In this document: in pieces, positions 6,455 to 33,409 of the stretch
Numbering within the stretch: the stretch's first letter is position 1
How the letters are laid out: every line of letters begins with the position of its first letter
Made by a program: the position numbers and the translations under genes
Notes under the pieces: model-generated
What the model saw: only the letters and a program-made list of their open reading frames with translations
Database searches by the model: none
Told to the model about the DNA's origin: nothing
Source: Oscillospiraceae bacterium
GTDB taxonomy: Bacteria; Bacillota; Clostridia; Oscillospirales; CAG-272
Assembly: GCA_015063585.1 (NCBI GenBank)
Contig: SVTW01000018.1
Location: forward strand, 1-35,572
Direction: 5' to 3'
Length of the DNA stretch: 35,572 nucleotides

Positions 6455-6489
6455 GGGTGAGTCAAATGCAACGCATCTGATCCTCACCC
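6455..6489 (+). repeat. hairpin of the GGGTGAG-TCAAATGC repeat family
   Basis: GGGTGAGTCAAATGC pairs across a 3-nt loop with GCATCTGATCCTCACCC and is followed on the plus strand by ACGTTTTTT. It resembles the first stem and 3' flank of the 171-nt elements at 10062-10232 and 26664-26834, so it may be a shortened copy. Both neighbouring genes are on the minus strand, where the hairpin follows the lipoprotein stop by about 45 nt and could end transcription from that side. Confidence 0.7.
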
Positions 6490-6533
6490 ACGTTTTTTGG
6501 AAGCGGAAACTGCACAGATAGCGCAGCCCGGTG

Positions 6534-10061: not shown

Positions 10062-10232
10062 GGGGCTGCATCATGGGCGCAGCCCCTGCTCAAAAAAGCC
10101 GACGGTAATTTTTTTGAAAGCGCGGAATTTACGGTTTTCGGTTGCAATACAGTCGAAAATTGCGGCGTTTAGCCGCAAAGCAAAAACATTGGGGGTGAGT
10201 ACCAAATGCATTTTTGCATTTGACCCGCCCCC
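10062..10232 (-). repeat. 171-nt hairpin-rich repeat element, copy A
   Basis: A block of consecutive hairpins that aligns without gaps to 26664-26834 with 148 of 171 positions identical. Read on the minus strand it begins with a long palindrome around TCAAATGC AAAA TGCATTTG (10191-10232), continues with TTGCGGC/GCCGCAA, then a weaker A-rich/GGCTTTTTT stem, and ends with GGGGCTGC/GCAGCCCC (10062-10086). It starts 13 nt after the pseF stop codon, on the same strand, and should lie in the 3' untranslated part of that message. Open frames cross it on both strands but lack ribosome sites. Confidence 0.9.
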
Positions 10233-26663: not shown

Positions 26664-26834
26664 GGGGGTGAGTCAAATGCAAAAATGCATTTGGTACTCA
26701 CCCCCGACGTTTTTGCTTTGCGGCGAATCGCCGCAATTTCCGACTGCTTTGCAGGCGAAAACCGCAAATTCCGTGCTACAAAAAAGCCTACCGTCGGCTT
26801 TTTTGAGCAGAGGCTGCGCCAATGACGCAGCCTC
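26664..26834 (+). repeat. 171-nt hairpin-rich repeat element, copy B
   Basis: Five consecutive hairpins: a palindrome of GGGGGTGAGT-CAAATGC with its complement (26664-26705), TTGCGGCG/CGCCGCAA (26718-26736), CTGC/GCAG (26744-26754), AAAAAAGCC/GGCTTTTTT (26780-26804) and GAGGCTGCG/CGCAGCCTC (26810-26834). It aligns without gaps to copy A at 10062-10232. It lies 31 nt after the mgtE stop on the same strand. The last two stems could terminate mgtE, and the whole may be a 3' RNA element or a small mobile repeat. Confidence 0.93.
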
Positions 26835-28535: not shown

Positions 28536-30239
28536 TCAAGAAAGCGGCGCCACTTCCACAAGGAAGGTTACGCTACCGCTGTAATTTCCCGATCTTGTGA
28601 TTAAGGAACGGTCAAGCTCTATGCGACCTGTTGCAACCACTGTTTCGTCGGATTCATAGAAGACGGCAAATATATCGCCCGACTGTAGCATGTCCGTGCT
28701 GTCCGCAGTTGGATAAATGTTGTATGGCAGTGTATAGTCCCCGTCAACCAATTGAAACCTGCCGTTGGGCGCTTCAATTTTAACAACCACGCGCTTTTCC
28801 CCAAACAGATGATCCACAGCCGTTGCGCTGACCGAGAGAGTGGTTTTGCTGATGCGTGTTGCGTCTGCCTCTGCGGGTGATGCTTGCGTAAGTGTGCCCA
28901 CATTGAGGGTTGCGGGTACTGTGATCTGATACGTTGGGCTGGGAACGGTTACCGTTGCCGTGATGGGAACCTTTTGAACGATGCGGTCATTGGGCTTTCC
29001 GAGACAAAGCAGTGTTCCGCCCTGTTCTCCCGCTTGAACGGCTACGGGAGCTTCTGTTTGCGTGCTTGTTACGCCACTGTCTCCAAGCTGCCCCGCATCA
29101 TTTTTGCCCCACAGATAAACAAATCCGTCGGAATCGATCACCGCGCTGTTTTGGTAACCTGCCGCAATTTCGGAGATCTGTTTTTCTCCGAGGTCAAGCG
29201 CGACTGCCTTTGGTGTTTTTTGAATCTTGGAGCTGTCCGCTACCGAATAGCCAAGCTGAGAATTGCTGCCATTTCCCCAGGTGTAGAGCGATTTGTCAGA
29301 GGAAAGTGCGATCATATGCGCGCTTCCCGACGCGATTTTCAAGACAGGCAATGCGTTGGCGGAAAAGGTTGCCGATGTGGGAACCGTATAATAGAGCTCT
29401 GTATCAATCTCTCCGTTTCCGAAGATCGCGTTTTGATTGATACCAAGGCTCTTAACCGCACCGTCCGACAAAAATGCCGTATGCGTAGTACCGAATACGA
29501 TCGCATCTGCTGATGCCGCATTTTTACGGGTAGGTGTTGTAATCACGTTCCCGCTTGAAACACCGGTTTGACGGTATTGATTATCACCCCAAAGCCATAC
29601 ACCGCCGTCAGCCGAAATTGCCGCGGCAACGCCCTGATCGGTCCAAATTGAGGTTATATACTGCGACTCAAGTGCGGAAACAAACACGGGAATATTGGAA
29701 AATTTATTGGAACCGGACTCTCCGTTTGCGAGCAATCCGGTTTGATTGCTTCCCCAAACCCAAACTCGCCCTGTCTCCGAAAGTGCGAAGGAAGTGTTTT
29801 CCCCTGCCGCAATTGCTACAAAGTTGACGTTTTCCGGCATTTGGATCTTTACCGGCGCGTTTTGATCCTCGGTAGAAGCATTTCCGAGCTGTCCCGCGCC
29901 GTTTTCACCCCAAGCCCATACGGCACCGTCTGTATCGAGTGCCAACGCATGCGCGCTCCCCGCCGCAATCTGAACAAAGGTTTGATCCGACGCAACCGCA
30001 ACGGGTTCCTTTTCAGAGGTTGACGTTGCACCGTTTCCAAGCTGTCCAACCCTGTTTTTTCCCCATGCGTAAGCATCTCCCTCCGCGGTCAGGGCAACTA
30101 CAAAGCCCTCCCCGATGCAAACCATCGGATCTGTAACCGAAAGGGTTTGCGCACAGGCTTTTACAGCGGCAAATCCGCGCATTGATTCAAACAAAAAGAA
30201 AATCCCCAGAAAAAAAGTGCATATTCTTTTGAAAATCAT
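28536..30239 (-). CDS. secreted RCC1-repeat beta-propeller protein
   Basis: A 567-aa exported protein. After a signal peptide (about 1-30) come seven RCC1-type repeats (about 35-425), recognisable by AAGxxHxxAL followed by GxVWAWGxNxxGQLGN, for example AAGSAHALALDTDGAVWAWG and GFVYLWGKNDAGQLGD. Seven repeats make one closed propeller. Repeat 5 is the most divergent (VKSLGINQNAIFGNG). Residues about 445-567 are a beta domain shared with the downstream secreted protein. RCC1 propellers usually bind proteins; secreted bacterial ones are thought to act in surface contacts, but no ligand can be named. No sortase motif is seen. Confidence 0.88.
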   Translation of the reverse strand: MIFKRICTFFLGIFFLFESMRGFAAVKACAQTLSVTDPMVCIGEGFVVALTAEGDAYAWGKNRVGQLGNGATSTSEKEPVAVASDQTFVQIAAGSAHALALDTDGAVWAWGENGAGQLGNASTEDQNAPVKIQMPENVNFVAIAAGENTSFALSETGRVWVWGSNQTGLLANGESGSNKFSNIPVFVSALESQYITSIWTDQGVAAAISADGGVWLWGDNQYRQTGVSSGNVITTPTRKNAASADAIVFGTTHTAFLSDGAVKSLGINQNAIFGNGEIDTELYYTVPTSATFSANALPVLKIASGSAHMIALSSDKSLYTWGNGSNSQLGYSVADSSKIQKTPKAVALDLGEKQISEIAAGYQNSAVIDSDGFVYLWGKNDAGQLGDSGVTSTQTEAPVAVQAGEQGGTLLCLGKPNDRIVQKVPITATVTVPSPTYQITVPATLNVGTLTQASPAEADATRISKTTLSVSATAVDHLFGEKRVVVKIEAPNGRFQLVDGDYTLPYNIYPTADSTDMLQSGDIFAVFYESDETVVATGRIELDRSLITRSGNYSGSVTFLVEVAPLS

Positions 30240-33355: not shown

Positions 33356-33409
33356 ACAGCCGAGGCTGTCAACCAAATGCTTAATTGCATTTGAGACAGC
33401 CCCGGCTGT
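33356..33409. terminator. bidirectional terminator carrying the CAAATGC hairpin core
   Basis: ACAGCCGAGGCTGTC pairs with GACAGCCCCGGCTGT with a single mismatch; inside it CAAATGC pairs with GCATTTG. The plus side is followed by TTTTAT, and the minus side by AATTTTATC. It lies between the convergent ends of the DUF624 gene (16 nt) and the glycoside-hydrolase-like gene (17 nt). Confidence 0.9.

Follow-up and report, generated by a model that had tools for sequence, protein, structure and literature searches.

MITEs are short, non-autonomous elements that are dispersed over a genome in near-identical copies. In the passages of Di Nocera et al. (2013, PMC3733652) on REPs, a CGTC-tagged group has no linked transposase, and REPs are mostly found at convergent or co-directional gene ends; in the two genomes shown there, most REPs at convergent junctions are no more than 20 bp away from either 3′ end. 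In terminators made of DNA uptake sequences, the intergenic hairpin is formed by an inverted repeated word (Kingsford et al. 2007, PMC1852404; PMC2267715). For intrinsic terminators with clustered hairpins, better termination than by one hairpin is proposed in passages of Gupta and Pal (2021, PMC8355165). RepRanger (2025, PMC12306157), according to excerpts of its text, separates REPs from Rho-independent terminators by the T-rich tail and filters out the latter. An element with both characters, like the one presented below, would fall between its classes. Excerpts of PMC8040213 report 3161 candidate structured RNAs from human microbiomes, including 250 palindromic ones, 230 of which are predicted terminators. 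The parts of the literature on REPs, repeats and terminators considered here contain no description of the element family presented below or of terminator replacement, and those on REP-like repeats at gene ends are silent on whether such repeats add to terminators or replace them.

The element analysed here occurs in two full copies, A and B, in the window, which is the whole 35,572-nt stretch of DNA under study. We propose, with a probability of about 0.7, that it is a non-autonomous, REP/BIME-like palindromic repeat that replaces the cores of terminators and is predicted to terminate transcription in both directions. The features of the window are the following.

26664..26834, plus strand: copy B, the full 171-bp element, 31 nt past the mgtE stop codon and 10 nt before the stop codon of the convergent gene (our gene calls)
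26664..26705, plus strand: left-end hairpin of copy B, GGGGGTGAGTCAAATGC..., with a GT bulge
26718..26736, plus strand: hairpin 2 of copy B, with changes on both sides across relatives in four of six pairs
26737..26761, plus strand: hairpin 3 of copy B, from the family consensus, 76% of cells paired
26780..26804, plus strand: hairpin 4 of copy B, AAAAAAGCC-TACCGTC-GGCTTTTTT
26810..26834, plus strand: right-end hairpin of copy B, followed by a T-rich flank and called terminator-like on the plus strand
10062..10232, minus strand: copy A, the full element, 13 nt past the pseF stop codon, with a right-end hairpin scanned as terminator-like
6455..6497, plus strand: third copy, short and decayed, with a left-end-like hairpin and a reduced right end reaching to about 6530 by eye
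33358..33408, no strand assigned: terminator hairpin between convergent genes, with the CAAATGC...GCATTTG core of the left end but other arms; it is related to the element without being one of its copies

The preliminary description had reported two gap-free copies of a five-hairpin element with 23 differences by hand count, and alignment over the 171 nt gives exactly this number. The spacing it gave to the upstream stop codons, 31 and 13 nt, is also correct, and the genes concerned are assigned above the cut-off to mgtE (NCBIfam TIGR00400) and pseF (TIGR03584). The claimed covariation in the last stem is found at element positions 148 and 170, which form an A-T pair in copy B and a G-C pair in copy A. 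Stems 1, 2 and 5 are present in the minimum-energy folds of both copies, and stems 3 and 4 are unformed in that of copy A. In copy B stem 4 is present and only the inner part of stem 3 is paired, while the outer part of hairpin 3 pairs with the stretch preceding hairpin 2. The fold of copy B reaches −87.3 kcal/mol (z −8.1) and that of copy A −68.7 kcal/mol (z −4.4), with no equally good fold among 200 shuffles in either case. Copy A is the more diverged one, differing from the genome consensus at 20 positions against 6 in copy B. The window also encodes, at 28536–30239 on the minus strand, a 567-aa protein that consists of RCC1-like repeats (Pfam RCC1, E 3.5e-58); this fold is more familiar in eukaryotes.

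The genome that contains the window (G000) is a 2.24 Mb draft of 99 contigs with a completeness of 86.5%. The window copies belong to a large family in it: allowing up to three mismatches, the left-hairpin word has 91 matches and the right-end word 79, and neither pattern has any match in G000 when reversed. The absence of further copies in the genome, which the preliminary description had named as a refuting outcome, is thereby contradicted. A tally of 109 stretches around word matches plus the window, in which a few partial copies are counted twice, gave 57 full-span copies and 31 internal partials; contig ends truncate a further 36 copies, of which 19 are left and 17 are right halves. The number of copies is estimated at 90–110. 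The 45 of 56 full copies that are exactly 171 nt long have a median pairwise identity of 97.7%, and seven of them are identical to the consensus. The copies are also relevant to assembly, with 36 contig ends of the 99-contig genome falling within one. The left-end hairpin occurs by itself as a 42–43-bp solo hairpin at seven loci. CAAATGC/GCATTTG palindromes number 125 in the genome, and 14 of the 98 with flanks lack the usual right arm of the left end; some of these 14 are element variants and others are terminators with unrelated arms.

The element resembles REPs, BIMEs and REPINs as a high-copy extragenic palindrome with single- and multi-hairpin forms, and it resembles REPs in its position at convergent and co-directional, rarely divergent, gene ends. 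It differs from REPs in its length, 137–206 bp against the 20–40 bp given for REP units in the REP passages considered, in its ends, which are two different hairpins, and in standing in the place of a terminator. It is also found in Clostridia, whereas the main text of PMC3733652 contains neither "Clostrid" nor "Firmicutes". The GTAG/CGTC tag of REPs is not conserved: beside the left hairpin lies GACG in G000 and GTCG in most relatives, and the reverse complement is CGTC in the GACG type only. Because of this unconserved tag and the lack of a linked RAYT, the element, which works like a REP/BIME, is placed outside any named REP family. Similarity to the DNA uptake sequence terminators lies in the repeated inverted word in intergenic terminator hairpins. 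An uptake sequence as such was rejected, since CAAATGC outside the elements is not clearly over-represented (111 observed, 85.9 expected in 384 kb). The element shares with clustered-hairpin terminators the presence of several hairpins near a stop codon, as described in the passages of PMC8355165; those passages describe no repeated family, and the text of the paper does not contain "transpos". The form of an intrinsic terminator, a GC hairpin with a T-rich tail at gene ends, is present as predicted from the sequence.

BLAST detected the element in 12 of 60 genomes including G000, two of the 12 only at E values of about 1e-4 to 1e-3. The preliminary description had proposed to search related Clostridia genomes with a covariance model. 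Such a model, with up to 73 candidates scored per genome, matched 20 of 35 genomes of the genus at E ≤ 0.001. The best E value lies below 1e-10 in 12 of the 35 genomes, eight of the 20 matching genomes have weak matches alone (best E 1e-8 or weaker), and five genomes (G000, G026, G015, G012 and G024) have at least 40 matches each. The order-wide sample yielded matches at E ≤ 0.001 in 16 of 295 genomes, which are strong only in G000 and in G272, a member of another genus of the same family. The other 14, marginal at E 1.7e-7 or weaker under stricter filters, were treated as chance. As judged from these searches, the element belongs to a single genus of gut Clostridia and, outside it, to one genome from the same family. 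No match of the element was found to plasmids, and a 30-base word of it has no exact match in IMG/VR. A weak match in L196 (G012) lies in the 5′ part of mgtE.

Exact left hairpins were found in Oscillospiraceae bacterium SIG678 (20 stretches), SIG689 (two) and Clostridia bacterium RGIG3976 (one). The SIG678 copies are 90–95% identical to the G000 consensus, many of them 92.3%. Four alignments of genes between SIG678 and G000 show 68–72% identity, and a fifth, at 76%, includes the element. Identical 169-bp copies in SIG689 and SIG678 (L051:7405-7573 and L060:7330-7498) point to recent transfer or to cross-binning.

The five-hairpin structure of the preliminary description is supported by an alignment of 21 diverse copies of 137–206 bp, in which the five helices are conserved with compensatory changes and 76–99% of cells are paired. 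Changes on both sides of a pair occur in 17 of 50 pairs, compared with 8.6 in shuffles. Hairpin 3 varies among relatives in sequence and length, and some G000 copies carry a 231-bp insert in its stead. Conserved unpaired stretches include CGCAAATTCC and the TACCGTC loop. Departures from pairing are of the G-U type in 30 cells, 16 of them from one bulge-side pair, and of the A-C type in 25, without a clear plus-strand excess. A long insert in hairpin 2 of one copy (L200:1411-1863, G015 C123) has ends resembling by eye the T-arm and acceptor end of a tRNA, GGTTCGAATCC-like.

The gene context of the copies was determined with our own hexamer-based gene caller. No called gene contains any of the 57 full-span copies. 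Both neighbours are called for 51 full copies, of which 35 stand between convergent, 15 between co-directional and one between divergent genes. When all hits are counted, the 69 junctions with the element include 44 convergent and 2 divergent ones, whereas the 175 junctions without it in the same stretches include 6 convergent and 35 divergent ones. The convergent excess of the full copies has a p value of about 2e-13 against the pooled baseline of 50/244, which is deliberately high, being inflated by sampling around copies. In SIG678, SIG689 and RGIG3976, 13 of 24 copies have both neighbours, seven convergent, six co-directional and none divergent. For the G000 copies the median distance is 25.5 nt to the same-strand upstream stop (42 copies) and 22 nt to the opposing downstream stop (49 copies), and both stops are at most 60 nt away in 21 of the 35 convergent copies.

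These positions bear on the suggestion of the preliminary description that the element is one of a family of structured RNAs in 3′ regions and is transcribed in sense. Such a strand-specific family with a regulatory or stabilising role in 3′ untranslated regions would need the plus-strand transcript. The covariation in the five helices, the conserved unpaired CGCAAATTCC and TACCGTC loop, and the same-strand gene on the left side of 42 of 54 full copies agree with it. However, at the 35 of 51 sites that are convergent both strands should be transcribed, and the 15 co-directional copies are antisense to the adjacent gene end in 11 cases and sense in 4 (binomial p 0.12), so that orientation is not tied to sense transcription. 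Furthermore, nothing shows selection on the plus-strand RNA alone, as the stems have no clear preference for G-U over A-C, and the window has no Rfam match at the gathering score. We regard a strand-specific RNA family as very unlikely, and as stated the suggestion is unsupported.

Flanks on the left of the element are rich in A (88% at position −1 in 83 flanks), and those on the right are rich in T (60–71% at +1 and +2 in 72 flanks). A simple scan calls the right-end hairpin and its T tail terminator-like on the sense strand in both window copies, and the same scan gives no call for an opposite-strand terminator at the left end of either copy. Termination from both sides is inferred from the abundance of A on the left and from the position between convergent genes. 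As the preliminary description had noted for the window, there is no target-site duplication: direct repeats are not above permutation in the 50 full copies tested (0.18 against 0.18). Strongly palindromic target sites were considered as well and obtained mixed support. Flank complementarity is clear without gaps (1.78 against 1.09 ± 0.12 permuted, 0 of 1000 permutations, 50 full copies) and modest with gaps (3.21 against 2.67 ± 0.20, 1 of 200, partly owing to one copy, 54 copies).

The relation of the element to resident terminators was assessed on convergent spacers. Spacers of 25–400 nt without the element contain a hairpin of −8 kcal/mol or lower in 15 of 16 cases in relatives and in 3 of 3 in G000. 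The relatives have 32 element-less convergent spacers, of which the 8 of at least 400 nt were left unscored; the 24 scored ones contain a hairpin in 15 cases, with none in the 8 shorter than 25 nt, and the corresponding figure for G000 itself is 3 of 6. Where a convergent spacer carries the element and neither flank exceeds 100 nt, a hairpin outside the element is present in 8 of 27 cases and absent in 19 of 27. At a few sites a strong hairpin still stands beside the copy, for instance at C48:22856 and C25:38739.

Orthologous gene ends were compared at several loci. The threonine synthase gene (TIGR00260) was found in 16 of 18 genomes searched, and the gene in these other species is 70–82% identical at the DNA level. 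The element is absent in 16 of 16, and in each of them the 90 nt after the stop codon contain a hairpin, with best folds of −12.9 to −34.4 kcal/mol (in L293 the stronger hairpin begins at 92). The convergent neighbour is the same in all 16, its end motif being located by exact word in 15 and by eye in L290. In G000 the element lies 13 nt after the threonine synthase stop and 10 nt before the convergent stop, in a spacer otherwise free of hairpins. The second gene end belongs to pyruvate carboxylase subunit B or oxaloacetate decarboxylase alpha and was matched in 15 of 18 genomes. In all 14 relatives examined, a 26-base match of G027 (L311) being left out, the element is missing and a hairpin stands no more than 100 nt from the stop, which by eye is a typical terminator in 12; this comparison concerns the 3′ side of the gene itself, without the neighbour. 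Here G000 has kept a weak hairpin (−7.2 kcal/mol) between the stop and the element. At the C95 junction, the SIG678 ortholog has TAACCAAAAA-hairpin-TTTTTT where the G000 element starts, 4 nt past the stop codon; on its other side this copy is truncated by the contig end. On the 3′ side of mgtE, the element is absent from the up to 180 nt past the stop that were inspected in the 21 relatives with downstream sequence (loci ending at or before the stop give none), and in many of them a plain terminator can be recognised by eye. G000 and SIG678 have the element in common at one junction, where it is oriented alike and lies 19 and 5–7 nt from the stop, which could reflect shared descent.

The ordinary terminators of the relatives at orthologous gene ends indicate that the element has replaced them. 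That the old terminator was lost at the moment of insertion is inferred from these junctions of other species. Both the non-autonomous mobile repeat and the composite terminator, offered as separate options in the preliminary description, are supported and appear to be the same thing.

The data were also weighed against a conventional MITE, inserted beside or inside terminators by a transposase that escaped detection, with the redundant old terminator lost later. The element is short, non-autonomous and dispersed in near-identical copies as MITEs are, composite and deletion forms exist, and a few copies still have a strong adjoining hairpin (see above). It departs from MITEs in that no parent element was found, in having no target-site duplication and in having inverted repeats of at most about 4 bp (GGGG/CCTC or CCCC). 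The boundary at A-rich and T-rich flanks also speaks against a MITE, and so does the absence of another hairpin at 19 of 27 compact sites, since the copies are very alike and therefore probably young. This explanation is considered unlikely. Homogenisation of resident multi-hairpin terminators by gene conversion, without any insertion, would account for the junction shared by G000 and SIG678 and for the species-wide homogeneity of the copies, those of SIG678 being about 90–95% identical to the G000 consensus. It is contradicted by the two searched gene ends, at which the relatives have unrelated simple hairpins and not diverged elements, and by the patchiness of the family across the genus, with matches at E ≤ 0.001 in 20 of 35 genomes and below 1e-10 in 12 of 35. 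Gene conversion is given the least credence of the explanations considered.

With terminator replacement by a REP/BIME-like repeat as the preferred explanation, the following route can be proposed. The repeat would spread within genomes and end up in the slot of a resident intrinsic terminator at the 3′ ends of genes. The whole element would be copied via single-stranded hairpin DNA, perhaps with an enzyme acting in trans. The new copy would exchange with or displace the GC core of the terminator, the local A and T tracts being kept, and once inserted would stop transcription from both sides. On this evidence, some of the terminators of the cell appear to have been supplanted by a repeat that is spreading. 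A more specific version is put forward tentatively, as possible rather than probable: a selfish palindromic element swaps its hairpins for the GC cores of terminators with the A and T tracts as the sole homology, needs no classical transposase, and is tolerated as it restores the function that it destroys. If replacement is true, it points to a way in which a repeat could multiply harmlessly to a hundred copies or so, and terminator hairpins would be targets for mobile DNA.

In that case the probably young family would also offer a route to the mobilising activity of palindromic repeats without a transposase. The Y1 transposase (RAYT) gained no clear support as the driver: none was found in G000 (86.5% complete), and it is unlinked to the element in relatives. 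A Y1 transposase gene scores above the cut-off in 5 of 35 genus genomes, which are incomplete. Nine relatives in the genus had clear copies by BLAST, and only three of them (G015, G023 and G024) have such a gene; the 1.6–3.4-kb loci around these genes in relatives contain no element. Group IIC introns target terminators. Targeting of this kind was considered, and no sign of an intron was seen by eye in the element alignment. An autonomous parent element was likewise not seen by eye among the partial and long copies.

Variants of the element bear on how it is copied. In one form, hairpin 3 is replaced by the 231-bp insert; three left parts and four right parts of it were found, with one pair joined at C61. 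A deletion form without positions 76–146 and a 140-bp form occur at two loci each. As these variants recur at separate, unrelated loci, whole elements seem to be copied, and their middle parts seem dispensable. The 231-bp insert, in the copy at L127:4729-5109 (G000 C61), has inverted ends, GGGGCTGATTCATT...AATGAATCAGCCCC. It is a second repeat nested in the first and seems to move along with it; copies with hairpin 3 replaced are also found at C20:6289, C70:20896, C5:64521, C38:111 and C51:52 of G000. Other short tandem hairpin repeats adjoin element copies in G000 (L079 near 411, L096 near 208 and L122 near 2014), one example being ATCACTGCGAAGCAATATCACT beside C25:208. They are apparently a second repeat family. 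Two further loci (L066:193-221 and L171:1902-1930, G000 C4 and C99) share the flank GTGAGCGGAATGAATGACACCACGGTGTGGTGTC... followed by the right-end hairpin alone, and represent another composite repeat.
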